From Argopecten irradians (Eukaryota; Mollusca; Bivalvia; Pectinida; Pectinidae), in NCBI RefSeq assembly GCF_041381155.1, contig NC_091134.1, forward strand, positions 53,951,944 through 54,015,943: 64,000 bases of DNA, read 5' to 3'. Shown here piece by piece: positions 1-63,948 of this stretch (within the stretch, counting starts at the first letter, position 1; every line of letters begins with the position of its first letter). Below the pieces are notes generated by a model, which was not told where the DNA came from, did not search any database, and saw only the letters and a list, made by a program, of their open reading frames with translations. The translations under genes were made by a program, and so were the position numbers.

Positions 1-196
1 CTGGAGTATCGAGGATGGGATGCAGTCGGCAATTGATAACCAGTACATGTATAATATGCTAAACTATATGAATTGATGTGCAAATAAAATCACCAATCGT
101 TGGTAAATGGTAATTAACATCCCCTTTGTCAGTTATGTTGATTTGATACATACACTGATTTTTAAAAACTGTATTTGCCTCTTTGTCTTCATAAAG

Positions 197-3100: not shown

Positions 3101-4981
3101 TATCGCATTGCACTTGTATAGCAGTGTTCTTATATCACCATTTCATTGATCATATCGGCATTTGTGTTTTTCGATATGCGAATCTTTAAACTTTTGTCTT
3201 TCCTTGATACTGATAATCCAGGGGTTCCGGTCACTTACGATCTTTACAACCCTGGACATTGTAAAATTGGAGGCAACAATACAGAAAATGTAATTTAAAG
3301 TTGTTTGGTGTACATCAAAAGAGCCGTATAACGGAAATATGTGATTGGCTGTGTGGCTTTGATATTGGTCGTCGCTATCTCTGTAGTCTTTAAAGGAAAT
3401 CTTTGCAGGACTGTGATTGGCCCAGATGTTTTCCACTGAGCTGCCTCCAATTTTACTATGAGAGAATCCCTGGAGTATCTAGGATGCTTAAGTACATGTT
3501 TATTGATAAAACGCACATTACATTTATACGCAACTAAAAGTGTGTTTCATTTGCTGTTATACAAATGTAACTTGCACAAAGTCGTTTGCCTTTCAGCCAT
3601 TCATTACATTATTTCGATGTGCGCCAACTGACAAGCGAAGACCTATCTTCAATTTCTATCATTGGTTTTTCGGGACGACGGCACATATAATGGCAGGCAC
3701 GTTTACTTTACTGACACTATATAAGTATACATACCTCTAAACTTGTATGTATGTCATGATGTTTTTAAAAATCATTTTTTATTGATTTTCAAAGTAGAAA
3801 CAAGATACAAAAATGAAACCAACTGGTTCAAAATTACTCTCATAATGTTAGAATGATATAAAAATGAATACAAATTTGCAATATAGATACTTTATGAATG
3901 CCATCTCTAAATTTCAGCTGTGACTATTGTGTTCGCCATGTATCTGGACAAATCCAATGTGCCAGAGAGTGCCAGATACATAGCCATAGCCTACATTTGT
4001 GTGTTCGTCTTCCTCGATTTGGTGTTGGAGATATATCTGCTGATACAGAGAAAAAACTCAAGTATGTATTTATTCATAGTGTTCTTTGTATATTGTCATC
4101 AGATAAAGGTTACATTCTTATCAAGTAAATCGAAACAGTGTTATTAATGAGATGATAAATCTATATCTAAACGAAAAAGTAAAAATAAAATATTTAAAAT
4201 TTGCAATCCTTAATAAGCACTATTGTGTTGCGACACTTGATCCGATACAAAATCTATTCAAAATACAATGTATTGATCAATAACATCTACTTTAAATGTG
4301 TAGAACATTAGACATTTTGATGATGCAAATCAAATTATTTTCGCATGCGGTAATTTTTTTCATATTTCGTGAGCAATAAAAATCTGCGAAAAATAATCAA
4401 CTAATCCACGATGCAAATTTTGGGCATGAAAACGCGAAAGTAAGTCATCGCAAAAAAGATGGTTTACATATTCAATGAATGGATTTTAGTCTATCATTTC
4501 TACTTTGTATTTTAGGTAAAACGTTTGACCTTGAGCTCAAGCGACATGATGCAGATGCATTGCCTGATACAGCGACGGTATCGCCCAAAACAGAGGTTAG
4601 TTCTGTTTGAATCAGCTACTTGACTTCAATAGCAACTATACCATAGGCTTGTTGTTAAATGTGTCAATCACAATATCAATTATCTGCTTCTGTATATGAA
4701 CTCAAAAATTTATTGAAAAAACAACGATTCGATTGTGAAAGAGATATTTCCTATTCTTAAATTTCTCCTGTTTAAGTATTCAATGAGAAAAATTGAAAAA
4801 AACCTGAATAAAATGTTATAGTAATTTTATGAGTCAATTCTGTGTTTATGATTTATTTTTGCCATTTTCATTGCAGGAGAGGGGTCCATTTGCGAAAGTT
4901 CTTCTAGCATTGCAGATACTGTCGATGACGGGTTTTGCTGTTGTTCTAATAGTCCTGATAGCAAGAGACTTGGACGATTGA
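197..4981 (+). CDS. DOMON-cytochrome b561 protein, ferric-chelate reductase 1-like (5' end probably off-window)
   Basis: Eleven exons join in frame: 197-394, 647-739, 1031-1184, 1474-1587, 1939-2054, 2287-2376, 2980-3063, 3597-3696, 3918-4061, 4516-4595 and 4877-4981 (TGA), giving 425 codons. Exons 1-3 encode a DOMON domain: CGVTKGCF with four cysteines, SDDKNM ending exon 1, and KWHLFFARG in exon 3. Exons 4-11 encode a six-helix cytochrome b561 domain with the four expected heme histidines in VEIHG, QIHRT, YHPILG and FYHWFFG. Family members move electrons across membranes and reduce ferric iron or similar acceptors; the substrate here is unknown. No reeler domain is visible. The acceptor before exon 1 (phase 0) implies an upstream signal-peptide exon outside the window. 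A contiguous hydrophobic reading from an ATG at 107 is possible but looks like T-rich intron. Intron 8 uses a GC donor. Closest relative in the window is the minus-strand gene at 27723-33476. Confidence 0.88.
3217..3485. repeat. Small inverted-repeat element in intron 7
   Basis: The stretch near 3253-3276 (CATTGTAAAATTGGAGGCA) is mirrored by TGCCTCCAATTTTACTATG near 3440-3458. The right end reads CCTGGAGTATCTAGGATG, which nearly matches the first bases of the window (CTGGAGTATCGAGGATG), so a second copy seems to be cut by the window start. Probably a MITE or similar non-autonomous repeat; the family is not identified. Confidence 0.4.
3697..3917 (+). other. GC-AG intron in the b561 domain
   Basis: The reading frame between the exon ending ATGGCAG at 3696 and the exon starting CTGTGACT at 3918 is kept only if the donor is CAG|GCACGT. 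The nearby GT at 3701-3702 would shift the frame. The homologous intron of the minus-strand paralogue (29282-29809) has a normal GT donor after the same CTGGCAG context, so the GC form is probably derived in this copy. Confidence 0.7.
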
Positions 4982-8664: not shown

Positions 8665-10504
8665 GTAACATCTAGCCTACCACTGGGGTCGTGCCGCCAG
8701 ATCCGGCCTGTGGGACTACAAGGCGTTGTTGGCCAGCGGTGTGTCCTTCCACAGGCTGTAATGACTTCCAAATCAGTTGGTCTTTCGAATGAGAGTGGAG
8801 TATGTTGGTCAAGGTGACCATTATATTGCACTGGGTTTCTCAGGAAACAGGCAAATGGGATTTTTTTTAATTTGTTATTAAACATTCACAACAATATAAA
8901 ACAAAAAATGTATGCTATTTACAAAAAATGTAAACTTATTACAAGAAATTACAACATTGCTATGCATGATTTGGTAAACTACCATTGATTAATCGTCAGT
9001 GAATCAAACTACCATTTTTACTGTTTAATGGGAACGGAATTCAGATATCAAGATTTTTCATTACACATCTAATGTTTTGAATTGATCAGACACTTTCATT
9101 CTATCAGGCAAGGAGCAACATCGTCATGTGTCGGAGTGATCGGAGCTCTAAGAATGTCGAGCTCGGCCACACTACCGCTGATCAAAGGTACTTCTCTTTA
9201 CCAGTGAGTACTCTGAATTATCACTCTAATTTGTATTCGGCAATTATTTTAAAGATACATGTACACTGTATAAAATTCCATTTTTAGTGTTATAACAATG
9301 TTCACTTATTCACTGGATGTAGTAATAGTGTGTCCTTTAGTAAAAAAACAAAGCAAAACAATAATAAAATAAATTAATTTAAAAAGGGATGCCTTCCATT
9401 CCCTGTTCATGGCTAGGGACACAAAACATATCTCTAAAAACCTATCTAATAAAATAAGGTGGTAAGATTGCAAACCTTTTTTTGATACAACACTCTTTGA
9501 AATGTCACTAGTGATAAACCAACAAGGTCTTAACAAGGTCAAACTACTTCAAATGTCTTATGTAAGTTTATTTGTTTATTTAGCATGTAGAAATTGCAAT
9601 TTCCTTGATTCCTTGAACCAAATATATCTTATTCTGAGAACTTTGAATGAAACTTATTGTCTCCTTTCGCTCCGCTATATTATTTTAGCTTGATAAATTA
9701 ATTGCCATTACCATCGTATTCTATTCTTGTCAATACAAACTGATTTCAGACATATGCTCGACTCCGGAACACGGCTTTTAGCGTCAACAACATCACCACG
9801 TGTTCTTTTGATAGGATCATAAAACCTGGACGGGTTAAAACCAATAATGTGGGGAGTCTTACCAAACCTTTCTACCTCTTACGTGCATGGGGACCGGTGA
9901 CAAGTAAGAAAGTGTTTTCAAATTATAACAGGAAAAAATCAAAACAAAGAAATATATATATATAATTTACTTTCACACACATGAAGAATTAAAAACAGAT
10001 ACAATATCCCTTTTTGTGACATAATATACAGGATATGTATAACCCGTCATTATGAATGTGGTCGAATTTCCAGTTTAAATAATGCTTTATCTGAAAAAGG
10101 TTTTAAGCCAATGTATTTACCTATTCATTTATTAATCAATTTTTCTCTCACATAATGATTGATGACTATCAATTATTATTCATTAGAGTTATGTAATAAA
10201 GTTTTTTCCGACGCTTACTATGGATTCCGTTAAAGCTATAAACAACCATACCGTGGAAGTATTTAAGTCGTACTTTCTTCAACAGACCAAATGTAATTGT
10301 GACTTGAAATTACACATTTATATTGGTTCAGAAAAAAAACTTGTAGTCTTTATTCTCATTTTAACAGATGGTACACCTGTCCAGCATATCTCTAGAGGAT
10401 CGTCTGTCGTTGCTTTCTCCGCCGCCGGACATTCTGTGCTCTCAGCAACTACAACTATTGGCGGATGCCTCGTGATGACCGTTCTGATTCTCCTGTTACC
10501 ATAG

Positions 10505-14213: not shown

Positions 14214-16440
14214 ATGACGTGGATCAAATTTGCGTGCATCCTTATTGCTTGTGTTTACATAGAGGTAAGAATAGTCTACCGTACAATAATTAATCTATGT
14301 CCTTAATCACGTAGATGTTCTTCCTTTGAATAATTTTTAGAACCGAAACACTGTCTAGAATATCTGCTGATTATGATCATGAATCATGACTGGGATAAAT
14401 CAATCCATCTGGCTATACTATACTTTAACATGTACTGCAAATTGCTTGACAGTTTATGAAGTGAACATTATATTTGCCATGTTTTTGTTTAAATATTCAA
14501 TTGACAATCGATTTCATTCCTACTGTCACTGATAATTGATAAAGGGCTGTTAGATCGGGGTTGATTTTATGTACTGTAAACAATCTTATTTTCGCGATTA
14601 CTTTATTTTAGATGTCCATGGCTTACTACTTTTTGATGGCAATCAATTATCGCGATTTTCTATCGACTGCAAAGTAAATGTACAAATGTTAGTTTACAGT
14701 ACTTGCTACGTTTTGTGTTTTGTACAACCTTCTCAACATAAATATATTTGCAACATCTAGCCTACCACTGGGTTCGTGCCGCCAGATCCGGCCTGCGGGA
14801 CTACAAGAACATGTTGGCCGGCGGAGTGTCCTAACACTGGGTGTAATGACTTCCAAATCAGTTGGTGGAACACAAACTCAGGCTACCTACGCTTTCAAAT
14901 GAGAGTGGATTATGCCGTTCAAGGTGAACACTATATAGCACTGGGTTTCTCAGCCAACAAGCAAATGGTAATTTTTTTTTATTTATTTTAAAAATCAAAA
15001 CAATAGAAAACAAAAATTGTATGTTAATTACAAAAAATGTATCATGCATCCTTTGGTAAATACTCATTCATTATAATCGTAAGTGAATAAAACTATAATT
15101 TTTCACTGTAAAAGGAATTCATATATCAAAAAGCTTCATTACACACGTGAGAATTGATGAAGCTCGTTTTCATATTATCAGGCGGACAGCAGCATCGTCA
15201 TGTGTCGGAGCGATGCTAATGTCGAGCTCGGCTACACGCCTGCAGAGAGAAGGTACCTCTCTAGACCAGTGAGTACAATTATCACTCTTATTTATATTCA
15301 ACAATTATTATCATACGTGTACATTGTATATACAAATTTCCACTCATTAAGGTGAGGTCGCAACAGTGTCATCTAGTAAGAAAACCCGATGCCTTTCATT
15401 CCCTGTTCCCGGACAGAGACACAAAACCTGTCTAAAGGGCGACAACTAAAACAAGTTGAACTAACTGTGTGGTAACACTCTTAACGATATCACTGCTGTT
15501 AATGACATGGTTTTACTAAACCATCAAGGTCGTATTCATTTTTACCAATTTTTTTACTCCAAATGTAAGTTTATTTGAACAAAATGGAAATTTCTTTTAT
15601 TTCTTAATTAGTTGACCCGAATATATCTCATTCTGAGAACTTTAAACCTTTTTATCCGATGAATTATTATCATTTTAAGCTTGATACATTATTCGACATT
15701 ACCATAATGTTCTATCCTAACCAATGCCAACTTCTTTCAGAATTTTACTGGACTCCGGAACACTTCTTTTAACGTAACAAATACCATTACCACGTGTTGG
15801 TTCGATAGGATCATAGAGCCTAGTGAATCTGAAATGAGGACTCTTACCAACTCGTTCTACCTCCTACGCGCATGGGGGCCGGTGGAAAGTAAGGGAGAGT
15901 TTTTAAATTATAACAGATTTTTTTTTTATAAAAAATGCAATGAACACATGACTTATTAGGATTCGATACAGTATTAATTTTTGTGACGTAATATATAATA
16001 CGCCATTATGAATGAATAATATTTGAAAAAAGTCAGTGTGTTTATCTATTCATTTATGTATCCAATATCCTCTAACTTAATGATTTATGACTATTAATTC
16101 ATTCAGTAAATACGTGCTATGTTATTACGTTCTTCATAAAAGATGCTTACTATGATTCCGTCAAAGCTAAACAATCAGGGAAGGATTTAAGTCATATTTT
16201 CTTCAACAGACCAATTAAAGTGTAATTGTGACTTGAAATTGCATATACATATTGGTTCAGCAAAATTTCTCAATTTCCAATTTAACAGATGGTGCACCTG
16301 CCCAGCATGCCGCGAGAGGGTCCTCTGCCGATACTTTTGCCTATCCCACCCAGGTTGCCGCTGGACATTCTGTGTTCCCAGCAACTACAACTATTGGCGG
16401 AGGCCTCGTGATGTCCCTTCTGATCCTCCTGTTACCATAG
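14214..16440 (+). CDS. Predicted GPI-anchored single-DOMON protein
   Basis: Five exons join in frame to 214 aa: 14214-14264, 14761-14967, 15182-15268, 15741-15888 and 16289-16440 (TAG). Exon 1 is a signal peptide (MTWIKFACILIACVYIE) whose ATG directly follows an AG acceptor, so a non-coding first exon is likely upstream. Exons 2-4 are the DOMON domain. Exon 2 has the Cys-rich start (DPACGTTRTC) and ends SANKQM. Exon 3 has IVMCRSDANVELGY. Exon 4 has TITTCWFDRI and FYLLRAWGP, with Tyr where the b561-linked paralogues have His. Exon 5 is Ser/Thr/Ala-rich and ends in a hydrophobic tail (TTTIGGGLVMSLLILLLP) with no cytoplasmic part, as expected for a GPI signal. It would sit outside the cell. Function is unknown. 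A homology search would likely name it FRRS1- or FRRS1L-like. Confidence 0.85.
14572..14701. mobile_element. Short MITE with TACTGTAAAC termini in intron 1
   Basis: Perfect 10-bp inverted ends TACTGTAAAC and GTTTACAGTA enclose 130 bp containing TTTCGCGATTAC and ATTATCGCGATTTTC blocks. The broken sister gene keeps only the right end (TACAGTACTTGCTAC near 8599), so the insertion probably predates duplication and was partly lost there. Confidence 0.6.
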
Positions 16441-19328: not shown

Positions 19329-22300
19329 CAGCATCGTCATGTGTCGGAGCGATGCGAATGTCTCGCTCGGCTACACGACTGCAGATCGGAGATATATCTC
19401 TATGGTAGTAAGTAGACTAAATTATCACTCTAATTTATATTCTACAATTATTAAGATACCTGTATATTTTATAATGCTCCATTTGTAGTATTAAGTCAAT
19501 ATCCACTCATTTATCGGAGGTTGTAATAGTGTCCTCAAGTAAACAATCCCGATGCCTTTCATTCCCTGTTTATGGACAGAGACATAAAACCTGTCTAAAG
19601 GGCGATAATCAAAACAAGATGTTTTCATTGAAAACGCTCTTCAAATATCACTAATGTTAATTTAATAACATGGTTTTCCTATCCAACAAGGTCATATTAA
19701 TTTTTCATAATTAATCTTAACTTCAAATGTAAGTTCATTTGTTTTAGCTTGCACAAAACTGAAATCTCATTAATTCCTTATTAAGATTTCAAGATTTAAG
19801 ATTTTATTTGTTACTCTCAGACACATGAAAATGTGTTACATGAGGACATAATGATATACATAGACATATACATGACAAGATGGACACAAAATATACATGT
19901 ACAAGATATACAAATACATAGAGTTATAATCGTATAATGTTTAAAGTAATTTCATTATCTTTCTTAGAAAAATTGCGAATTTGTTTAAAACTTGGATACT
20001 GCAGATATTCAATAGACGCTCTAATTTTAAAAAAGTAGGATATTTGGTGTTGTACTGAACAAAATAGGTTTTTTCTAATAGCTTTAATTTCCCTTTTTTG
20101 ACATTTGAAAAGATAGTGAAATTCATCTCCGATATCAACTTGACATAAATTACATATTCTATTTTCTTTCGGGATACCGAGCCATCGTCCAGTTTCAATA
20201 GGGAACTTTATATTTGAGGTACGAAATTTTGTAATAGTAATTCTGTTTTGTTCCGATAACTTTGTTAAATAACTTTCGAAAATAAATTCTTTTTTTAAAT
20301 TTTGAATAAAACAGACCTTTGGACGAACCATTTTTGTATAAAAGCGTCACGTAGACGTTGTGCAACTTCATGCTTATAAAAAATTGCATACATAGGTATT
20401 TCATTATCGAATATATATGTGAATCCAGTATCATTAAAAATTTGTTTAACACGATCTAACCATTTAAACCGTATTTGTCCATTGCGACTTAAACTCGCCA
20501 TTAGTCTATAAAAAATATTACTTAATTTATTTTCATTTAACAAAAGGTTGTTCCAAAAATTTAACATTCTCAGCTTTACCTGTATTTCTAACGGATGTCT
20601 TCCCAATTCACCATAAATCATATATCCAGGCGTGCTAGCCCTAACATTTAAAATTCTTTGTAAAAATTTAAGATGGGTTTGTTCTAAAATCTTGAAATCT
20701 TCGCAACCCCAGATTTCTGACCCATATAACAGAATCGGTTCAACTAAAGAGTCAAATAGCTTAAGATGTAGATCTACTGGTATTGCCTGATTTCGGATTT
20801 TAAAAAAATGAAAATATAGATTTTTGTGCCTGTTCTGTAAGCTTCTGTCTAGCCGCCATAAAATTTTCGTTAAATTTAAAAGTAATTCCGAGACATGTAA
20901 AGCAGTCTACAATTGTCAATATTTCATTGTCGAGTATAAAGTTGTTTTGCCGTCTACACTTTCTCTTGCTAAATAACATTACTTTAGTTTTATTAACATT
21001 TACTTCTAGCTTCCACACTTTACAATATTTGCTGAAATTATTCAGTGCAGCATGCATACCTTCAACACTTTCCGCAAAAATAACAGTATCATCAGCATAT
21101 AATAGTACAAATACTTCTAGTAAAATACGTAATTCTCTGGTTATAATCTCATTAAGATTTTGGAGAGAAGTACTACCTTTAGATATCAAAAATTCCTCCA
21201 GATCATTAAGAAACACAGAAAACAAAAATGGAGAGAGATTTTCACCTTGGCGTACCCCAAATTGACAAGGGAAAAAGTCAGTGGTTTCCGAATGGAATTT
21301 CACACAGGACTTGATATTATCGTACATATTGTATATTATTTTGAAACATTTACCCTATATACCACTTTTAATCATTTTCTTCCAAAGTCCTGTTCGCCAG
21401 ATAGTATCGAACGCCTTACGAAAATCAACGAATGTGCAATAAAGTTTTTTACCACTTGATGTATAAAGAGATATTAAAGTATGCAAAATAAAAATGTTGT
21501 CCATGGTTGAGTGGTTTTTCCGAAACCCTGCTTGATTTTTAGATAGTAAACTAACAGTATCGGAGTATTTGTTAAGTCTGTTATTAATTATACGTGTAAA
21601 TAGTTTTCCTAAACAGCTTATCAAAGTAATAGCTCTGTAATTATCGGGGTCATCAGGATTTCCTTTATTTTAATAAATTGGTTTGATCACGCCGATTGTC
21701 CAACTTTCTGGTATTAAACCAGTTTCAAATATAATATTACATAATTTACAATACATTGACATTAATTCAGGAGACGAAAATTTGATATATTCATTTAAAA
21801 TGTTGTCTACACCAGGCGCTTTACTATTTTTCAGATGGTTAATAGCATTTTTAAGTTTATCTTCCGATATCATACTATTAAGTATAGTGTCATTCTCTTC
21901 GGGGATGACGTCATTATTTTGATTAGCTACGTCATTTTCATTATCATAGACAGTCTGGTTTTCGTTTTAAATTCTTTAAAATACTGAAATAGAGTATCTA
22001 TTGGAATTTCGCCATTTTTTGTCTTACACTGTGAATTTTTATTTAGAGTATTCCAGAACAGTTTAGGGTTATTTTTAGAAATCTGGCGGAATTCTTTTGC
22101 GCATTTTTCTTTGAATTTTCTGTGATTTACACGGATTCTTTTCCTATACTCTGTTCCTTTTTTATTCATGTGATTTTTACTAAAAGTCGATTTAATACGT
22201 TTATATGTACTTTTAGCTCTGTTAAATTCAGTGCGAGCTGTTTTACATTCTTTATTGAACCATGGCTTATCTTTACCTTTTTTTGTATGTCGAGGTTTTT

Positions 22301-24010
22301 TAACTCCAAAAATATCTTTGGCTGAAGTAGTTAGCACAGAGCATATACTTTTTACTACATTGTTAATTTGATCATTAGTAATCAAACCAGAATCCATTGA
22401 TTGCAGTCTATTTAACGTGTTCTCTATATTACGGAGACTGTCCTGTTTTGTCTGAATAGCTTCAGAAAACATATTTACTTTAGCCTGTTCCCATTTACAT
22501 TATCAGTATGTATATGTAATTGGTCGTCTTCTGCTGATACCGGTAATGGAATATTTTGGCATGATTGTAAATTACAGGAAAATTCTATTGTTTTATGTAC
22601 ATCAGAGAATAAAGGGTCAAAATCACAAATTACGAAGTCAGACACTAATCGAAATGATTCTGGAGACATCAGCAGGTAATCTACAACACTAGTATCTTTA
22701 AAGGTTGTTACACCAATACATTTATCTCTGTAAATACGGCCGTTAGCAATAAATGAAGAACATCTTTTACATAATTCTAACAGTTTTGTACCATATCTAT
22801 TAGGGTGCGCCGTGTCTTCACTATACCTGGTAAGACTTATATTTTGACTTGTAAGTTTTTCGCATGCATATACATTTTCAACATTAAGGACTGAATATAT
22901 CCTAACTCAAAACTTTGAATGAAATTGATGGTCTCCTTACTGGCCGCTATTTTTTTATTATTATTTTTAAGCTTTATGAATTAATCGCCATTACCATTGT
23001 ATTCTATTCTTGTCAACACTTACTAATTTCAGAACTTTTTGGACCTCCGAAACACGTCTTTTTACGTTACAAATGGCATCACCATATGCTGGTTCAATAG
23101 AATCATAGAATCTACATCTTCTAGGTTCTTTGATCTGAGAAATCTTACCAGCCCGTTCCACCTCCTACATGCATGGGACCCTGTGACAAGTAAGAGCGAG
23201 TTTTTAAATAATAACAGACACCATTATGAATGTTATCGAATATGAAAGCACTTCGAAGGAAACGATTTACAAATTATAGAATGCATCATTTTAAACTCAT
23301 GGATCGATTTTAAAATGAATAATCGGGTAAAGCTTGGCTAAAGTCGGTCACAATGGTAGTACATTCATTTTAATTTCTTATGAAATAGAAAAATAAAACT
23401 TCCCGTCAAGATCGTTTTACATGCAAAGAAATAGATTTATTTTAACGGAATCATGGGGCTTTTCTTTAATTGCAATGGTCTAAACTGGACAATATAAGCA
23501 GAACTTTACCGTCGTTTTGATATGCAAGTACCTTTGGAAGGCTACTTAAGGCATTTAGACTAGTTTTGTCTGCCCGACTATTCACTTTAAGTCAAGGTGT
23601 ATCTTTTCAATTTATTCATCCAACTTAATGATTGATGACTATCAAATAAATCATAATTCATTGGATATGTATATATTTTAAAGTTCTTTCGAAAGGACGA
23701 TTACAATAGACTCTGTTAGAGCTAAACAATGGTATCAGTGAAGGATTTGGGTCATACTTCCTTCAACAGACCAACTAAACTGTAGAACTTGTAATTTTGA
23801 TCTGACATTACACACATATATTGGTTAATGAAAATTTCTCAATTTCCCATTGAACAGATGGTGAACCTAGTCATCATACTGTGCGAGCATCATCTGGCTT
23901 TACTTAGGCCTATCCCACCCAGGTTGGCGCCTGACACGCTGTGCTGCCAGCATCTACAACTATTGGTGGCGGCCTCGTGATGACCCTTCTGTTCCTGCTG
24001 TTACAACAGA
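19329..24010 (+). pseudogene. Decayed third GPI-type DOMON copy split by a LINE
   Basis: Only the 3' half of the gene survives. Exon 3-like sequence lies at about 19329-19407 (IVMCRSDANVSLGY, donor GTA|GTAAGT) but its acceptor no longer aligns. Exon 4 at 23033-23189 is fully open (NTSFYVTNGITICW, FHLLHAWDP) with good splice sites. The last exon, from 23858, keeps the GPI-tail pattern (TIGGGLVMTLLF) but carries in-frame TAG and TGA codons, and its original stop is lost. The signal-peptide and first DOMON exons are missing upstream. A LINE at 19786-22882 sits in the intron between exons 3 and 4. Confidence 0.75.
19786..22882 (-). mobile_element. 5'-truncated LINE (non-LTR retrotransposon)
   Basis: Reading on the minus strand, the element starts inside an apurinic endonuclease domain (KLLELCKRCSSFIANGRIYR, SVVDYLLMSPESF, FSDVHK). 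It continues through a linker (SKNNPKLFWNTLNK) and reverse transcriptase: KNSKAPGVDNILNEYIK, SKNQAGFRKNHSTMDN, FVDFRKAFDTIW, QGENLSPFLFSVFLNDL, and the catalytic YADDTVIF. A C-terminal TPGYMIYGELGRHPLEIQ region and an AATAAAATCTTAAATCTTG-type tail follow. The frame is interrupted a few times (for example between 21927 and 21873, and around 21660 and 21330), so it is inactive. A possible 6-bp target duplication ATTAAG lies at 19780-19785 and 22883-22888. The clade looks Jockey/CR1-like but is not settled. Confidence 0.85.
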
Positions 24011-49342: not shown

Positions 49343-50521
49343 GTGAACCCACAATGTGGAGACGGTGAACTGTGTAAAAAAATGGGGAATATATCATTGG
49401 TCAGGGCGTTGGTCAGTGTCACAGATCTGAACGTGGCTATTTGTTCACTGGTCATTAACACAGTTGCCTCTGTTACGTTCTCTAGATGTCGGAATATTGT
49501 CCCACAAATCAAAGTGCTCGTATATAACTTACTGCTGATCCAATGGCTATATACGGCATGGATTGTTGTTAGTCAGTCGATTGTTTCACATTACGGATTC
49601 ACGCTTTTCCCATCTTACTGCAATGCATTGCTTGTGGGTATCATAGAAATCATCGGGATCTCCACTGGAATCGTGACCTGTATGGCTGTCGACAGAATGT
49701 TAGCCTTATGTTATGTGTCGTGGTATATGGTACACATCACAAAAGGAACTACCATCGCACGATGTGGCACTATATGGCTATTGATACAGTTCTTTGCTTG
49801 GATCCCTTTAGCTCACAACGACAAAAGTGGTAACTGTGTTGCTTCAATCTATAATGATTTTCATCTGGAAAAACTGCTTCTTGGTATATTTTTCTTCTAC
49901 TGTGCTTCGGTTTCGTTGGTTTGTGTGTATATGGTCGCTAAGAGGATACGAGGTGACAGAATGGTGGTGCCGGTGGAAACTTCTACAAATGGCTATATAA
50001 ATGAAATGCCAATCACGATGTACAACACACCGATAGTGATTTTCGCTGTCGTGATGATCGTGTTTTCTACCTGCTGTCCCTTTGTGGTATCGTTTCTTCT
50101 GTCGCTTGTGAACAACAACACATTGAATGCAGACAATGTTATGCTGATATACGCCGAACTTTACCATGTCGCATTTCAAATATCTTTTACAATTACAACG
50201 ACAGTGTTTGTTTTCGTATTCAAAGAAAGTCGTATTTACTTCCTAAGAACATTCTTCTGTTGGTATCCAAATTTCTTGGAACTTGCAGATCGTTTGGAGC
50301 GTAAATTGAAAGAAGAGGATGGAGAAATTGTTCCTCGTCGTATCCAAAGTCAATCATCAGCGAACGTTGTGTCACCTCTAGTTGTGGTCAGACCGTCGTC
50401 TGTTAGTGATAGCGAGGGAATGGATGTAAATGATATAGACATCTTTGTTACTGATACCTCTAACGGACAAGGGCCGAGGGCCAGGACTGAGGACCGCCAT
50501 GGATCAGATATTAGGTACTAG
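49343..50521 (+). CDS. Intronless divergent class A (rhodopsin-like) GPCR
   Basis: A 392-aa uninterrupted frame has seven hydrophobic segments at about residues 29-46, 56-77, 93-123, 138-157, 177-200, 229-255 and 265-292. Class A features: Cys93 at the top of helix 3 and Cys165 in loop 2 for the usual disulphide, DRM at 117-119 in place of DRY, and Trp145 in helix 4. Other anchors are altered: helix 2 has NLLLIQ in place of the NLxxxD motif, helix 6 has TCCP where CWxP is usual, and helix 7 has TTTVF at the NPxxY position. The C-tail is about 100 aa, Ser-rich and acidic. Met14-Gly-Asn-Ile-Ser gives an alternative start and a glycosylation site. Ligand unknown; a lineage-specific peptide or orphan receptor is likely. 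It is unrelated to the DOMON genes around it. Confidence 0.85.
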   Translation: MNPQCGDGELCKKMGNISLVRALVSVTDLNVAICSLVINTVASVTFSRCRNIVPQIKVLVYNLLLIQWLYTAWIVVSQSIVSHYGFTLFPSYCNALLVGIIEIIGISTGIVTCMAVDRMLALCYVSWYMVHITKGTTIARCGTIWLLIQFFAWIPLAHNDKSGNCVASIYNDFHLEKLLLGIFFFYCASVSLVCVYMVAKRIRGDRMVVPVETSTNGYINEMPITMYNTPIVIFAVVMIVFSTCCPFVVSFLLSLVNNNTLNADNVMLIYAELYHVAFQISFTITTTVFVFVFKESRIYFLRTFFCWYPNFLELADRLERKLKEEDGEIVPRRIQSQSSANVVSPLVVVRPSSVSDSEGMDVNDIDIFVTDTSNGQGPRARTEDRHGSDIRY

Positions 50522-53997: not shown

Positions 53998-54083
53998 GAT
54001 TATATCCCATTTTGTAGATTATATCCCATTTTGTAGATTATATCCCATTTTGTAGATTATATCCCATTTTGTAGATTATATCC
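53998..54083. repeat. 19-bp tandem repeat
   Basis: Four identical units of GATTATATCCCATTTTGTA plus a partial fifth. Confidence 0.95.
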
Positions 54084-54608
54084 ATTGTACACTTTTGCCG
54101 TTCATTACTCCACTCTCAGTAAATCGGACAAAATCTTCATATGAGTCACTGCATAGAAATAACTAACTAATGCTATGTAGCAATCACTATCATCAGTTTG
54201 GAGAAAAAACTGTTATTTGTAAATTAAATTATTAAAACAACAAAAATGAGAAAGGTAACATGTTTTAATAATTTATGAGCTACAGTCGACTTCAGGTTCC
54301 ATTTTGCTCATTTCATATCTCGTTCATACATTCAATGCCACAGTTGACTTCAGGAACCATTTTGCTCATTTTATTTCTCGTGCATACATTCAATTTACTT
54401 TCTCTTGTGATTTCATTTAATTGAATGTTTGTCTTGTCAAAGAAAACTCGTGAAAACGAAAATTGATTCTCTGTCAGTCAGAACTAGCTATATTAAAGCA
54501 CCGAAACTTTGGTACATTCCAAAAGCGTTAAAAAATCTTACTGGACAATATGTTGGTGTATGACCACATATTTCGACATTTGTAGATCCGGTACCATTAC
54601 ACGGGAGG

Positions 54609-57600
54609 ATGAACCGTCTATTTTACGCGTGTATGCTTGGTTTGGCTGTCACTGTAGTTGGTACAGCTGACACTAATAACAGCACTTCTACAGTACAGGT
54701 ACGTTAATCAGTACAAACACATGTTATACGAGGTTTTAAAAAACTAGTTAAAGGTACTACTAGACTCAAAATATCAGTCAAATATTTTTTACATTAAAAT
54801 GCTAGAACAGACTACGATCTATTTTCAATATACTTTCAACAGAAATGCCCATGACGTAATATTTTTTGTTGTTTTTGTTTTTTTTTTTTTTTTTTGTTGT
54901 TTTTTTTTCATAAAAAAAAAATAAAAATTTAATATCCCAGACATGTTATACATCTGAAGGCTGCCAAGGTTGGGGCGTAATATTTGTATCGTAAATTAAG
55001 TATTTCTACTTCATCGACAATTATATGAGATGCAAAAATAAAAGCATTCAAAATTTCAAACAAAACTAAAGAATCAAATCAAACAAATATGGATACTATT
55101 TTCTTCAGACGTATGCAAGATCATGATCGTTATTTATTTATTTATTTATTGTGCTATTCAATTCTCATTATTTCAATTTGGATTCAATGAATACGGGGCA
55201 GAATTAAGAAAAAAATAAGTCATACACATTTAGTGTAGGAAGGGAAAACCAAACAAACACAATATGACTAAAACACACACAACAAAGCGATTGAAAATAT
55301 ATCAATACCGTCCATATATTGTATAGCAATCTTTTTCTTACAGCGACGGCGACTCGCACTTGATAATGACTGTGACACAGACTGTTTCCAGAAATGTGAT
55401 AAATTTGGTTGCGAATTCAGAGTTAAGTGGAAGAAAGTCGGTGATTACGTGGAATTCGATGTTCAGCAGGATATATCGACTCTGACCATTATAAGTGTGT
55501 GGAACGCCATAGGATTTTCACAAGACCGCGAAATGGTATAACTAAATATTCTCTTCACAATCGTAGATACTCTAAAATGAACATTTTCAAATGTTCTTAT
55601 ATCTCTTTTATGGCAAATAAATAAAATATTTACAAATATAGACTTGATGTCATGCTAAATAGTTTCATAAATAATAGTTTGTGTTTATATTGTGTACATT
55701 TATGTTACTATTGTAGAATAAGTCTTTAAATGACATTAATGCGATTATTAATGATATTAAAAAAGATTGCATCTTTCAGAAATATTTTAAAAAAAATTCA
55801 TACATAAAATGTACCTGTTATTTAACGTTAAATTGCTTCATTTGACTTAGTACATATAATGTATGATGACGTTCCTACAGCCAGGCGCCAGTGTGGTGAT
55901 GTGCATATATAACGACTTATCGATGGAAATAGACATTGGCTACAACAAAGGACACAGCTACGAAAAGTTAAGAGGCGTATGTTTAGCTTCTTTTTTATTA
56001 TTTAGAATATATATTTTCTGATGTACCTCTGTTCAATTCAAAAGTTATACATATTGTTTAGAAATAAAGAAAAATATTGGATGAAATCTACAAAATGATC
56101 TTATATCGTGACTATTGTTTCATTAACGTTTTATAAACCTAGAACTCTATTGTTTTATTTCTCAGGCATCCAGCACATTAAAGAACAAACATGGATCTGT
56201 CGTCGACTTTATTTTTACCTGCAGTTTTCAGCGTCGTATTGACCCCGACTTTCCTCACGAGGCTTCATTGTCACAACCGGCATACCTGATGGTTGGTCAG
56301 GGCGAAGTCGGTTTAATCACGGGTGATTACATACCTAACAGAAGATATTTGAAAATTATTCTTAATTACAATTTCATTAAGTATTGATGTAACCATTTTT
56401 TAATTTCAATGGGGTATGAAAAATAATGTTTGCAAACTGTGTGAATCCATAGAGCGGATTCTCAAAAGTTTACAAACAAAATTTTGACATCAATGCTTAT
56501 AATTAATTTTACAATCTTTTTGATAAGTGTGTTAAAATGTATCATTCTGGTGATCAATAGTCAACGTCAATGTGTCTATTGAAAACATTAATTATAAAAA
56601 TTAATAAAATCAATTATATTGATATATTTCATATGACTTCACAGCATAAGAGATTAAATGTTTTTTTAATGTTTCACAAAACAAAATAATCAAAGTATGC
56701 AAAAGAAATTATCATTGAGAAAATGTTTTAGAGATTTAAAGCATAAAAACTATCCCAGTAATACTTAAGCGGAGGACATCAAAAGGTCTACATCATGTTT
56801 TAATATTGAACTAGTACTATTATGACGAATTTTAGAAATTTTAACTTTTTTTAATTAAAGATCAGATATATAAGCATGATCGAGACCCTGTGATCTCTGA
56901 ACTCAAGTTTGACTTCATACATAGTCCGGATCATCCAACAACTACCTACACTCCTGATATCACAATAAAGGTACATTTAGTTAAACATCACCATGTAAAT
57001 GTTAGTCTTAATCATGTTCTAAGATGTTTGAAAAAAATACTATAATGATAACTGCTTCATAAAAAAAACATTCGCTATTTTCAGTACTTGAAACACAAAA
57101 AGTGTCTAGTTATCGTGGGGAAGCTAATTCCATCATTAAGGAACGGTGTTAAATAGAACATATGTGGTTTTTGTTTTGAAATTCCATCAGAGAAATCCGT
57201 GATTTGCGTCTTCTCCGGCACATTTTTGGCAAGCAAGCACTCACAACATATAGATACGTTGTAAATTATTGATATTTTAATCAATATTGATTCCTGTTTA
57301 AGCCTGCTCCATTTGTGCTGGATCCGGATTGTGGAAAGACAAAAGGTTGTTTCCGAAGCTGTGACGATACAGGGGAATGTTCTTTCCAAGTGACGTGGCA
57401 GGAGGCTGGAGATTTCATAGATTTCACAATGTCACAGAATATCAGTGCTCCAAACAACTATTGGGCAGCACTTGGGATATCGGACGATCAAAACATGGTA
57501 AGGAGTAACACTTTTAATAGCGAAGCAAAGTGGGTTTTTTTCCAAATCATCAAATTTGTCAATAATAAGTATTTATGTATTACTGGGATTTTTAATTATT

Positions 57601-60600
57601 ACACATATTCTATGAAAAACTGTCACTTTTTTGAAACACCCATTTATTGTACTACAAAGGATTTAACTGAATAATCAAATGACTTAATTTATATTGTTAG
57701 ACTGTTAATGCACATTATTATCATCTTATCGTTGTTCTTACGGTAGGTTTTCGATAAACAATTTTTGGGAAAGCATTGCATAAAAATATTAATATCTGTT
57801 TCCTATGTAAATGAGAAATATAATATAAACTTCAATACGTACAGAAAAATACAAGTGTGATCATGTGTAAGGATTTCGATGGAAAAATTACAGTAGAGCT
57901 CGGCTATACTCCTGGGTACTCGTACGAAACTGTTGCAAAGGTTGGTATTTCTTACACTTGGCTGTTATTCAACTTTCATGAAATTGGCCTCCAACCTAAC
58001 TTCAAATTTTTGATTTTATTATGTTAATTCGTTCCGAGTTAATTCATTAAAAAGGAACATAAATAGTGTTCTATAAATAAAATAAAAAAACTATAATGTG
58101 TACTGACTTTTCAGAATACCAGTTATCTTGTTAACAAAATCTAACATATGTTTGGTGTGTACTGACTTTTCAGAATACCAGTGATCTTGTTAACACCAGC
58201 GGTTCACTTGAAGATGGAATCTTTAACTGCAACTTTCAGCGAAGGAAGATAATCACTGACTTTAATGACTCATTTCCTTTAATCGAAACACATTATGTTA
58301 TTGTTGGTTATGGACAAGTTATAAATGGTAAGACATAATTTAATTTTGTATCGCGTCTCATGTTAAACTCTCCATCTTAAATACAACATAACTGGTTCAT
58401 TGTACGAAAACACACGTGTCTGATGTAATATTTGCCATAGGGACTTCCTCTTTATAAAGTCAACCTGTTAATTAATAACGCTATCTGTTGGCTCAAATGA
58501 CCAATTATAACACAATGTGACCAGTGTATAAAGACTCACCGCGTATTATATTCAGCAAAGCGTTCAAAGCACGCAGAACTAATCAAGTTATGCATTATTC
58601 AACGATTCCCAAATTCGGGTTATGCAAGGGCGTTTTGGGGTTTCAGGAACGTCCCCCATACATTTAATAGTCATATATTTCTCTCGCTTTTCTCAATTGT
58701 TACACTCATGCATTCCCCCTAGGCATTTGGAAACCGTTCAAGACACGTCTATTGCGATCATTTGTGTGTTTCAGTCATTATAAAACACATGTTCATGTCA
58801 GATTGATGAGTATACCGCTTTAGAAATGCATATGTTTGAACAGGCACACCTATAATGCATGAGCTTTTTCCGACGGTCAGTCAACAAAAAGAGGACTTTA
58901 TCCATGTTGGACCAGAGATGACTACAGTACATCCGGGAGATATAACCACTGAGGTTTGGGGATTACGACACGTATATAACCGACAATGAACTAGCATTTT
59001 TGTTTTTGTCCTTTGCCTTAAAATTAAAAAAAAATCTTGCTGTCATTGATTTTAAGATGCAACATCACTGTGATTGCAGCAAGGAAATGTTTTCTACAGA
59101 AGTTTTGAGATAAAATTTATAATGTAGGTGAAAAAATGATGGTTATCCTAAGGTCATCATTCTGTTATATGACTATAAGGAAATAAACAGTCTTTCTGAA
59201 CTATAAAAAAGACAAATAAAAAAATGCTACCTTTGTGAAACATAACAAAAAAATGCCTGTAACATTTACAATATTATTTATAAAATAACAATAAAATTAG
59301 GATTGAATATTAAACATAACGATGAAGGATATTTTCTTCTATGTATTGAATTTGCCATTCCTTTTGTTTTTGTCACAGCCGGGCCCGATCGTGCCTGACG
59401 CTGATTGTGGGGTCACCAAAGGTTGTTTCTATAGCTGTGACAGCAATGAAGATTGTATGTTCCAAGTGACGTGGCAGGAGGCTGGAGATTTTATAGACTT
59501 TACAATGTCACATAATATCAGTGCTGCAGACAACGTGTGGATAGCCCTCGGCATATCGGACGATACCAACATGGTAGGAACTGCTTAATGAATTGGTTCA
59601 AATTTTCAGCATCAGAATCAGATGTTTTCAACCGTCACTTTCATAAAATCTACTTACCGGGGTACATACATTATATCATATTTGTTACAGAAAAACACCA
59701 GCGTGGTCATGTGTAAAGAGATGAATGGCAGCATTTCAGTGGAGCTCGGCTATAATCCTGGATACGCATATAACACCGTGGCAACGGTATGTGTTCTATT
59801 AGCAATGATTTCAAGTTTTTGGTTAAACATATCACATAACACGAAAAATCAATCAATATACAAAAATAATATTGAAATACGGACGTCAATATCCGTTTAA
59901 AGAGAAATGCTGATAGTTCCCATGTTCGACAAATAATCAAGTTTGAAATACCACAACAGGACTAATTATCTCGATATGTCCCATCGATGACACGCATACC
60001 TGCTCACTCCTCCGAATAACTTGTTTCTAGGTTCATATTTTACGAACCTATAAGTCTAAATCCATGTTTCCTTTTATCATCACAGTTTTGGTTACCATTG
60101 TGCCCCATTGTCGATATTGTTTAAATCTGACACAGAGGTTTGATTCATCCTGATTTTCGTTTACTACCTTCCAGAATACCAGCGATCTTGTAAACACTAG
60201 TGGTTCACTCGAAGACGGAATATTCACTTGTAGATTCCAAAGGAGAAAGATAATTACTGAGTTTAACAACACTCTGTCGTTGACAACAAGACGCTTCGTC
60301 ATTGTAGCTAACGGTTCCATATCATCTGGTAAGAGTGTTTACACTTAGAAAGATTGTTACTCTGATGATTTGATATCTTATCGCATTGTAGTACATAAAG
60401 TGATAGTATACTGGTTACACATATGGGTACTCTTTGCAATAATTCTCTTGGAAGCAGGCGCTATTGAAGTGGTGCGATATTTAACGTGAACGTATTGTGG
60501 CAACAGTATTACACGACGTCATTATAACGTTGCGCTTCGATTAAGGCGCCAAGATGGCAGACAGGCCGTGGTGTAGGTGAAGGAAACAAATGTTGCTTTT

Positions 60601-63600
60601 CCACAAAAAACAGCTCACTAAATCCTCATGAAACTGAATCTCGTTTTTTTTAAACAGAATTCTGTGATAATTTTGATAAGGTAGCAACGTTAATCAGCAT
60701 GCTGTGGAAATAAGGATAGCGGTACGAGGGTTTATGTTACAATGAAATGAAAAGAGCCCATTCACACGGGAGGGTGATTTACTAAACCAATTATGGCTTG
60801 ATTGAGAGGACACTATTGCCTCACAGTATTGCTTCATGATGGAATAGTGCCCTCGGCTTCTTCTCGGATACTATTCCATCCCTCGACAGTACCACGAGGC
60901 AATAGTGCCGGCTCAACCAGGCCATAATAGATCAGTATCATTGAAATAATTCCATTTGTTAACGATGAAGGTCGATATAGATTGTTGATATTGTTTCTTT
61001 AGCTAAGATTGTTGAATCGTTGATTATCATGCTGGAAACCAATATATTTGAATCCTCGACGTTCTCTCCACAGGAATAAGTTTTTTCTCGTCCCTTTACA
61101 GTTAAATATCATCCTATCCAATATATTGTTTAACGCATGTGCAGAGACATACAACTACATTACATAATATTTTGGCTTGAACAGGATTGCCACAAAAGCA
61201 CACAACCCCTCCGGCCGTAAGTTCGCAAAAAGAAGACTTCATCAATATACATCCCGAACATACCACAGTCAACCCAGGGGAGATAACAACACAGGTATGC
61301 CACAGTCATAGACAAATCACTAGTACTAGTGTTAAAATTGATATAATAAACAAATGCAAAAACGGTTCATATAGGCTGATTGTAATTGTGAAAACTATTA
61401 AATAACGGTAAATTTAATAGTTTATCCATTCATTTTAAGAATGGTTCAGACATCATTTGTCACATGTACCGCATATTTTAAAGACTTAAGTTTCCAACAA
61501 CGTTAACCCCTGTTCACTATACCAAGAATGTGAAAATTTAATTTTATCATTATAAATTCGTCACAGCCCGGCCCGATCGTGCCTGATGCTGATTGTGGAG
61601 TCACCAAAGGTTGTTTCTCTGAATGTGACAGCAATGAAGATTGTATGTTCCAAGTGACGTGGCAGGAGGCTGGAGATTTTATAGACTTTACAATGTCACA
61701 GAATATTAGTGCTGCAGACAACGTGTGGATAGCCCTCGGTATATCGGACAATACCAACATGGTAGGAACTGCTTAATGGTTTGGTTCAAATTTTCAGCAT
61801 CAGAATCAGATGTTTTCAGCCGTCACTTTCATAAAATCTACTTACCGGGGTACATACATTATATCATATTTGTTACAGAAAAATACCAGCGTGGTCATGT
61901 GTAAAGAGATGAATGGCAGCATTTCAGTGGAGCTCGGCTATAATCCTGGATACGCATATAACACCGTGGCAACGGTATGTGTTCTATTAGCAATGATTTC
62001 AAGTTTTTGGTTAAACATATCACATAACACGAAAAATCAATCAATATACAAAAATAATATTGAAATACGGACGTCAATATCCGTTTAAAGAGAAATGCTG
62101 ATAGTTCCCATGTTCGACAAATAATCAAGTTTGAAATACCACAACAGGACTAATTATCTCGATATGTCCCATCGATGACACGCATACCTGCTCACTCCTC
62201 CGAATAACTTGTTTCTAGGTTCATATTTTACGAACCTATAAGTCTAAATCCATGTTTCCTTTTATCATCACAGTTTTGGTTACAATTGTGCCCCATTGTC
62301 GATATTGTTTAAATCTGACACAGAGGTTTGATTCATCCTGATTTTCGTTTACTACCTTCCAGAATACCAGCGATCTTGTAAACACTAGTGGTTCACTCGA
62401 AGACGGAATATTCACTTGTAGATTCCAAAGGAGAAAGATAATTACTGAGTTTAACAACACTCTGTCGTTGACAACAAGACGCTTCGTCATTGTAGCTAAC
62501 GGTTCCATATCATCTGGTAAGAGTGTTTACACTTAGAAAGATTGTTACTCTGATGATTTGATATCTTATCACATTGTAGTACATAAAGTGATAGTATACT
62601 GGTTACACATATGGGTACTCTTTGCAATAATTCTCTTGGAAGCAGGCGCTATTGAAGTGGTGCGATATTTAACGTGAACGTATTGTGGCAACAGTATTAC
62701 ACGACGTCATTATAACGTTGCGCTTCGATTAAGGCGCCAAGATGGCAGACAGGCCGTGGTGTAGGTGAAGGAAACAAATGTTGCTTTTCTACAAAAAACA
62801 GCTCACTAAATCCTCATGAAACTGAATCTCGTTTTTTTAAACAGAATTCTGTGATAATTTTGATAAGGTAGCAACGTTTATCAGCATGCTGTGGAAATAA
62901 GGATAGTGGTACGAGAGTTTATGTTACGATGAAATGAAAAGAGCCCATTCACATGGGAGGGTGATTTACTAAACCAATTATGGCTTGATTGAGAGGACAC
63001 TATTGCCTCACAGTATTGCTTCATGATGGAATAGTGCCCTCGGCTTCTTCTCGGATACTATTCCATCCCTCGACAGTACCACGAGGCAATAGTGCCGGCT
63101 CAACCAGGCCATAATAGATCAGTATCATTGAAATAATTCCATTTGTTAACGATGAAGGTCGATATAGATTGTTGATATTGTTTCTTTAGCTAAGATTGTT
63201 GAATCGTTGATTATCATGCTGGAAACCAATATATTTGAATCCTCGACGTTCTCTCCACAGGAATAAGTTTTTTCTCGTCCCTTTACAGTTAAATATCATC
63301 CTATCCAATATATTGTTTAACGCATGTGCAGAGACATACAACTACATTACATAATATTTTGGCTTGAACAGGATTGCCACAAAAGCACACAACCCCTCCG
63401 GCCGTAAGTTCGCAAAAAGAAGACTTCATCAATATACATCCCGAACATACCACAGTCAACCCAGGGGAGATAACAACACAGGTATGCCACAGTCATAGAC
63501 AAATCACTAGTACTAGTGTTAAAATTGATATAATAAACAAATGCAAAAACGGTTCATATAGGCTGATTGTAATTGTGAAAACTATTAAATAACGGTAAAT

Positions 63601-63948
63601 TTAATAGTTTATCCATTCATTTTAAGAATGGTTCAGACATCATTTGTCACATGTACCGCATATTTTAAAGACTTAAGTTTCCAACAACGTTAACCCCTGT
63701 TCACTATACCAAGAATGTGAAAATTTAATTTTATCATTATAAATTCGTCACAGCCCGGCCCGATCGTGCCTGATGCTGATTGTGGAGTCACCAAAGGTTG
63801 TTTCTCTGAATGTGACAGCAATGAAGATTGTATGTTCCAAGTGACGTGGCAGGAGGCTGGAGATTTTATAGACTTTACGATGTCACAGAACATCAGTGCT
63901 GAAGACAACGTGTGGATAGCCCTCGGTATATCGGACGATACCAACATG
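54609..63948 (+). CDS. Secreted multi-DOMON protein, at least five modules (3' end off-window)
   Basis: Signal exon 54609-54698 (MNRLFYACMLGLAVTVVGTA) is followed by repeats of a four-exon cassette. Module 1: 55344-55535, 55881-55976, 56166-56322, 56861-56970. Module 2: 57303-57497, 57845-57940, 58174-58327, 58844-58953. Module 3: 59379-59573, 59691-59786, 60175-60328, 61185-61294. Module 4: 61567-61761, 61879-61974, 62363-62516, 63372-63481. Module 5 starts 63754-63948. Each complete module is 555 nt (185 aa), and 835 codons are in the window. Within a module, exons 1-3 form the DOMON (DCGVTKGCF, TWQEAGDFIDFTMSQNIS, SDDTNM; then VVMCKEMNGSISVELGY; then FTCRFQRRKI) and exon 4 is a 37-aa Thr/Pro linker. 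Exon phases 0-0, 0-0, 0-1, 1-0 make the cassette symmetric. No membrane segment is seen before the window ends. The likely place is extracellular; function unknown. The DOMON His is absent in the complete modules. Confidence 0.88.
58097..58214 (+). repeat. 59-bp tandem duplication spanning a 3' splice site
   Basis: The stretch TGTGTACTGACTTTTCAG|AA followed by TACCAGT and ATCTTGTTAACA occurs at offset 59. The downstream acceptor gives the real exon (58174). The upstream acceptor would start an exon at 58115 that reads NTSYLVNKI and stops. Confidence 0.85.
60790..60930. repeat. Intronic hairpin element (first copy)
   Basis: The left arm TTATGGCTTGATTGAGAGGA...CACTATTGCCTCACAGTA pairs with the right arm TACCACGAGGCAATAGTG...CAACCAGGCCATAATAG, and inner GGAATAGTGCCCTCGG also has a partner. 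It is a roughly 140-bp imperfect palindrome, probably a MITE, between the third and fourth exons of module 3. Confidence 0.7.
62977..63117. repeat. Intronic hairpin element (second copy)
   Basis: Same palindrome as at 60790-60930, carried along by the module duplication rather than by a new insertion, since both flanks match. Confidence 0.75.

Follow-up and report, generated by a model that had tools for sequence, protein, structure and literature searches.

The DOMON exons at the right end of the window (the whole stretch of 64,000 nucleotides analysed here) are best explained, with a probability that we put at roughly 70%, as part of one gene encoding a plasma-membrane CYBDOM (DOMON plus cytochrome b561) similar in kind to FRRS1/SDR2 and plant CRR, with an ectodomain enlarged to eight DOMONs of which the distal seven are free of electrons. 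Cytosolic ascorbate would reduce the pair of hemes in the b561 domain, from which electrons would move outward to a third heme, that of the last DOMON, and then to an acceptor outside the cell, for example a ferric chelate. The other seven DOMONs would carry no electrons and would instead form a long stalk, N-glycosylated, rich in disulfides and jointed by linkers, to hold or bind something extracellular. Growth of the array itself would come from homologous exons crossing over unequally, with partial homogenisation at the first two exons (A and B) of its modules.

The gene model and its modules

A total of 38 exons could be joined in the gene model, with AG/GT at every splice border, compatible phases and no stop. 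The gene starts at window position 54609 on the plus strand and extends approximately 9 kb beyond the window, which represents C1:53951944-54015943 of an 846 Mb genome (a position on contig C1 is the window position plus 53951943). The abundance of introns and the types of gene found point to an animal, and a COX1 search gave no match. For the right flank, 80 kb were taken from near the right end of the window, 78 kb of which lie beyond it, and the DOMON exons were mapped along the joined sequence. The model consists of a signal exon, seven DOMON modules (M1-M7), a divergent eighth module (M8), a linker exon and five b561 exons. The frame holds 1,698 amino acids where the final residues are read past the last GT to the next stop, and the likely last tail exon would make the product 1,725 amino acids instead. 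A single message, the membrane topology and the heme loading of this product are predictions of the model.

The start codon and the signal peptide are found in exon S (54609-54698; 30 codons, phase 0-0). A relaxed scan for signal exons gave four candidates upstream of M1, exon S being one of them. The modules M1-M7 each contain 185 codons in four exons (A-D) with phases 0-0, 0-0, 0-1 and 1-0. The plus-strand modules in the window are M1 (55344-56970; exons 55344-55535, 55881-55976, 56166-56322 and 56861-56970), M2 (57303-58953; exons 57303-57497, 57845-57940, 58174-58327 and 58844-58953), M3 (59379-61294; exons 59379-59573, 59691-59786, 60175-60328 and 61185-61294), M4 (61567-63481; exons 61567-61761, 61879-61974, 62363-62516 and 63372-63481) and the first exon of M5 (63754-63948). 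Beyond the window and on the same strand follow the remainder of M5 (C1:54016228-54017311), M6 (C1:54017435-54018513), M7 (C1:54018729-54019987), M8 (C1:54020433-54021671), the linker exon (C1:54021892-54022005) and the five b561 exons (C1:54022233-54024887).

The description given in the earlier note, namely at least five DOMON modules from a repeated exon set with these phases, each complete one exactly 185 codons long, agrees with our annotation of a signal exon, four complete modules and the first exon of M5 in the window, all with AG/GT borders. The gene model also bears out its reading of one modular multi-DOMON gene with a four-exon, frame-neutral cassette and Thr/Pro linkers. Its proposal of a long secreted DOMON chain was not supported, as a b561 membrane domain closes the open frame; to the right of the window the gene model passes through M5-M7 and the divergent M8 into the b561 exons, an ending that the note had itself set against a secreted chain.

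The modules differ widely in their similarity. M1 is only 37-40% identical to M2-M7 and has exon lengths of 192/96/157/110 compared to 195/96/154/110 elsewhere, and yet it contains the same 185 codons. M2, M5, M6 and M7 differ from one another by 13-33% in coding DNA, and the identity to M3 is 98% for M4 and 88% for M6.

The Pfam scans covered residues 1-585 (exon S and M1-M3), M1, M2, M3, M5 and M7 singly, and the stretch from M8 to the end of b561. DOMON was matched in all five of the single modules and in M8, with M1 (4e-12), M2 (9.8e-18) and M3 (9e-19) above the curated cut-off. Only DOMON and b561 were found in these scans; they contained neither a Reeler domain, which is N-terminal in FRRS1, nor a copper monooxygenase domain of the DBH/MOXD type after the DOMONs. 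Exon-by-exon scans of the genome gave twenty matches with Pfam DOMON and three with Pfam b561, and the eight-DOMON gene was absent from both sets, probably as a result of its short exons. Protein queries against the genome did recover the gene, and the spliced modules match DOMON clearly. The b561 part as a query gave twelve matches, five of them its own exons and the other seven weaker and elsewhere.

Three further observations were made around the gene. A short tandem repeat with a unit of about 19 bases was seen by eye at 53999-54085, about 500 bases upstream of exon S. A single-exon frame resembling a seven-transmembrane receptor lies at 49343-50521 on the plus strand, with a Pfam 7tm_1 score of 27.8 bits against a cut-off of 30.5. 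An Rfam search of window positions 40000-64000 gave no match.

It is unlikely that these exons are divided among at least two genes, with M1-M7 forming a secreted multi-DOMON gene and M8 and b561 a separate short CYBDOM behind it. Such a split would accord with the divergence of M8, which is 33-38% identical to M1-M7 and groups weakly in our tree with the membrane-proximal DOMONs of the paralogues (82/71), and with the occurrence of single-DOMON b561 genes (C6-11 and C6-14) in the same genome. AATAAA or ATTAAA also occurs in six of the seven inter-module introns, although such hexamers are to be expected wherever introns are AT-rich, on general grounds rather than from a computed background. 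The gap between M7 and M8, however, is only 445 bases long and contains no signal-exon candidate, the last exon of M7 ends in phase 0 where M8 begins in phase 0 with no stop between, and in the four paralogous loci G1, G3, C7a and C7b a further DOMON module also stands ahead of the proximal DOMON. In the relaxed scan, six of the seven inter-module introns were without a candidate and a weak one was found in the M6-M7 intron; given the background of six candidates in 9 kb, about one would be expected in the 2,084 bases of inter-module introns.

The predicted electron path

In the single-gene model, DOMON stands upstream of b561 in one frame. The Cytochrom_B561 match of the tail scores 22.8 bits (E 0.00012), just under the cut-off of 23, and hydropathy gives six overlapping segments that merge into five. 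Four b561 heme histidines were located by motif at positions 1519, 1559, 1599 and 1635, with a spacing of 40/40/36 where the residue numbers reported for CRR give 36/33/36 (excerpt of PMC10784552). The position four residues after the last histidine is alanine, counter to the family pattern, as glycine is conserved there in the insect b561 proteins described in part of PMC10691727.

A DOMON holds one b heme between a methionine and a histidine, according to excerpts of PMC10691727 and PMC10784552, and in the former these two residues are given as universally conserved in the animal CYBDOM DOMONs examined but not in sugar-binding DOMONs or DBH. All 12 of the 12 DOMONs in our alignment have the methionine at the end of exon A. 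The predicted histidine position is occupied by Q, Y, N, N, N, N and N in M1-M7 respectively and by H only in M8, which makes M8 the only module of this gene with both predicted ligands (Met1392 and His1476, positioned from motif and spacing). This histidine sits in an A-H-G motif at the end of the domain, 84 residues after the methionine and 43 before the first b561 histidine, compared to 91 and 40 for the counterparts in CRR (excerpt of PMC10784552). The assignment rests on the A-x-G motif, the spacing and the published description rather than on structural alignment to a solved DOMON. A PDB sequence search with M8-b561 gave no match. Profile A1 represents six of the eight modules (without M4 and M5) and profile A2 twelve modules, its four C6 rows being without exon B; PDB searches with two profiles returned no DOMON and only weak, chance-like matches to an unrelated surface protein. 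Use of ascorbate and ferric reductase activity are proposed for the product.

The distribution of the histidine among the paralogues is uneven. G1 and C7b have it in their distal DOMONs, and it is also found in 13 of the 14 contig-7a units and in one C6 module. The membrane-proximal DOMONs of G1, G3 and C7a carry R at this position, and the remaining ones E, K, Q or W; the histidine is also missing from the single-DOMON paralogues C6-11 and C6-14. Its absence from these two genes and from the proximal DOMONs of G1, G3 and C7a implies either that such proteins work without that heme or that the assignment is wrong, and its frequent loss in the family, even beside b561, weakens any simple rule. 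Since the methionine is kept where the histidine is lost, altered heme binding in M1-M7 is possible.

The invariant methionine, together with the presence of both ligands in nearly all of the contig-7 units, would suit an outward electron wire with heme bound in each of the eight DOMONs. This is very unlikely for the eight-DOMON gene, as the predicted histidine is missing in seven of its seven distal modules and the pair is universal among the animal CYBDOM DOMONs described above; we rejected the wire on this loss.

The preferred reading, a redox-silent ectodomain on a single heme-bearing DOMON, gives the distal modules another role. N-x-S/T sequons in the DOMON part number 5-7 in each of M2-M7 (five in M2, seven in M3), none in M1 and one in M8, compared to 0-1 in contig-7a modules and 0-2 in the modules of other paralogues. 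Each of M2-M7 was shuffled 5,000 times, and 3 to 159 of these shuffles had at least as many sequons. Six cysteines occur at fixed places across M2-M7. Glycans, disulfides and a stalk or binding role are proposed for the distal DOMONs.

Growth of the array and its paralogues

All fifteen pairs among M2-M7 have a dN/dS of 0.10-0.25 (M1 lies outside the pairs), because of which the array is not a product of chance; M2-M7 are under purifying selection. Exons A and B among M3-M6 have a dS of 0-0.22 and exon D is intermediate, while exon C is near saturation (1.1-1.7 or undefined) apart from the M3/M4 pair. These values, which are rough for exons as short as these, suggest exon-limited conversion with the array partly homogenised at exons A and B. 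The introns outside M3/M4 are nearly unalignable, with best local matches mostly below 45 columns and one (M5-M7) reaching 108 columns at 68.5%.

M4, the youngest module, arose by unequal crossover inside exon A. The intron before its exon A is identical to that before exon A of M5 (272/272) whereas the intron after it follows that of M3 (114/117). Within the exon, seven differences at offsets 2-56 side with M5 and those at offsets 125, 137 and 148 side with M3; offsets 134 and 173 look private to M3, and 140 and 183 private to M4. Exon A of M4 is thus an M5/M3 recombinant, with the crossover most likely between offsets 57 and 125. As the breakpoint falls inside the exon, in-register exon homology kept the frame and symmetric phases were not needed. 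The earlier note had seen in the symmetric cassette the basis of growth; the phases are indeed frame-neutral, but phase symmetry as the cause of growth was rejected on the position of this youngest breakpoint. Exon-exon unequal crossover, as in the M3/M4 duplication, is one way such arrays grow.

The linker exons before b561 point to the source of the cassette. With a profile of eight D exons, all three of the linker exons tested outscored all 1,000 of their own shuffles; given this relationship, the cassette looks copied from the ordinary CYBDOM plan of DOMON and linker.

Over 2,188 bases, introns included, the identity between M3 and M4 is 98.95%, which is what haplotypes joined head to tail would give, and the small indels in the contig-7 units indicate that the assembly may be imperfect in repeats. 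There is nevertheless little likelihood that the array, or even M3/M4 alone, is an assembly artefact, as the coding differences and nearly unalignable introns of M2, M5, M6 and M7 make these modules real and the recombinant exon A of M4 is as unequal crossover predicts.

The least probable reading is that of a DOMON protein of an ordinary kind, secreted for adhesion or as part of a matrix, to which the signal peptide, the sequon-rich modules and the Thr/Pro linkers would be suited, as the b561 exons lie downstream in frame; a truncated secreted splice form of the eight-DOMON gene is possible.

A second array was found on contig 7 (C7a; C7:34292000-34334000, minus strand) with fourteen DOMON units, thirteen of them showing Met and His, a terminal DOMON and b561 exons. 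Its units are mostly about 2.25 kb apart and most of them are nearly identical; the unit modelled has 189 codons with exon phases equal to those of the eight-DOMON cassette. Seven of the fourteen units, including the reference unit, have no indel anywhere in the four exons or their 12-base flanks, six contain small indels, which are either assembly errors or decay, and one is badly degraded. An insert of about 6.4 kb is found within one inter-unit intron. A tandem-repeat finder with a longest period of 500 reported none at one contig-7 locus.

The order distal DOMON, proximal DOMON and b561 is observed in G1, G3, C7a and C7b, while C6-11 and C6-14 each have a single DOMON with b561; by eye, the cassette phases are also seen in the short paralogues. 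The two-DOMON gene G1 (window 1-4054, first module at C1:53950097, plus strand; distal HAHG, proximal FARG) is a possible ground plan. G3, also a two-DOMON b561 gene (window 39847-29145, minus strand), has an in-frame stop in its first b561 exon (31108-30998) as a result of either decay or sequence error. Further plus-strand DOMON exons at 8685-9899, 14770-15890 and 19330-23101, two of which end in RAWG and the first of which looks frame-shifted, are followed by no credible b561 match on the plus strand up to 29 kb and are possibly an unanchored DOMON gene or decaying copies. On contig 15, a DOMON cluster includes a 206-codon frame (C15:21131443-21131853, minus strand) with two DOMON stretches, possibly intronless.

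Twenty-two of the thirty extracted modules were used in the tree, including four of the twelve from contig 7a. An earlier step had left out three contig-7a units, of which two have short A exons and one is degraded, the proximal DOMON of C7b, which is broken, and modules one and three of the 8.7-23 kb neighbour. In the tree, G1_N, C7b_N, W2_2 and G3_N fall together with the contig-7 units (97/98), M1-M7 form a separate group (90/90), and only four of the nineteen inner branches are firm, M1 and W2_2 being long branches. This grouping suggests that the eight-DOMON gene and the contig-7 array were likely amplified independently. A wider proposal, that two CYBDOM paralogues amplified the distal DOMON independently with opposite fates, one (7+1) a redox-silent, glycan-coated ectodomain and the other (14+1, on contig 7) a relay, is doubtful. 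If true, the contig-7 Met/His repeats could relay electrons outside the cell through b hemes in a tunable way, which would make them the functional equivalent in a eukaryote of bacterial multiheme wires, without shared descent.

Comparison with known systems

In plant and insect work, CYBDOM proteins are described as transmembrane reductases with one, or rarely two, extracellular DOMONs (excerpts of PMC10784552 and PMC10691727). The Arabidopsis CRR, which promotes ascorbate-dependent iron reduction, shares with the eight-DOMON gene a signal peptide, a DOMON with Met and His and a five-transmembrane b561 domain with four histidines (excerpt of PMC10784552). Both CRR and HYP1 have one DOMON in the accounts excerpted (PMC10784552, PMC10784544) compared to eight here, seven of them without the histidine. 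FRRS1/SDR2 and the insect CG8399 have, as in this gene, a DOMON with Met and His directly before b561, but CG8399 begins with a Reeler (part of PMC10691727), which our Pfam scans did not find here. Two DOMONs were reported for 19 of 888 insect CYBDOM hits, the most given in that part of PMC10691727, where multiple DOMONs are called uncommon. The ferric-chelate-reductase-like proteins of abalone shell matrix are likewise invertebrate and combine DOMON with ferric-chelate-reductase similarity; they are of the Reeler type with disordered regions, and the excerpt of PMC6003135 describes no repeated DOMON array. None of the papers among the matches listed in our literature text searches, which covered papers and not protein records, dealt with a b561 protein carrying three or more DOMONs.

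A further counterpart is the contig-7 paralogue of the same genome, which shares the repeated four-exon DOMON cassette, the terminal DOMON and b561 and differs in having fourteen units, 189 codons in the modelled unit and the histidine kept in 13 of the 14. Paralogues that appear to have reached eight and about fifteen DOMONs, with repeats lacking the predicted histidine in one and carrying it in the other, provide a natural test of whether the role of the DOMON is that of an electron relay or a binding stalk. The CYBDOM kind is already known, and the longer DOMON array is what would be new in the eight-DOMON gene.
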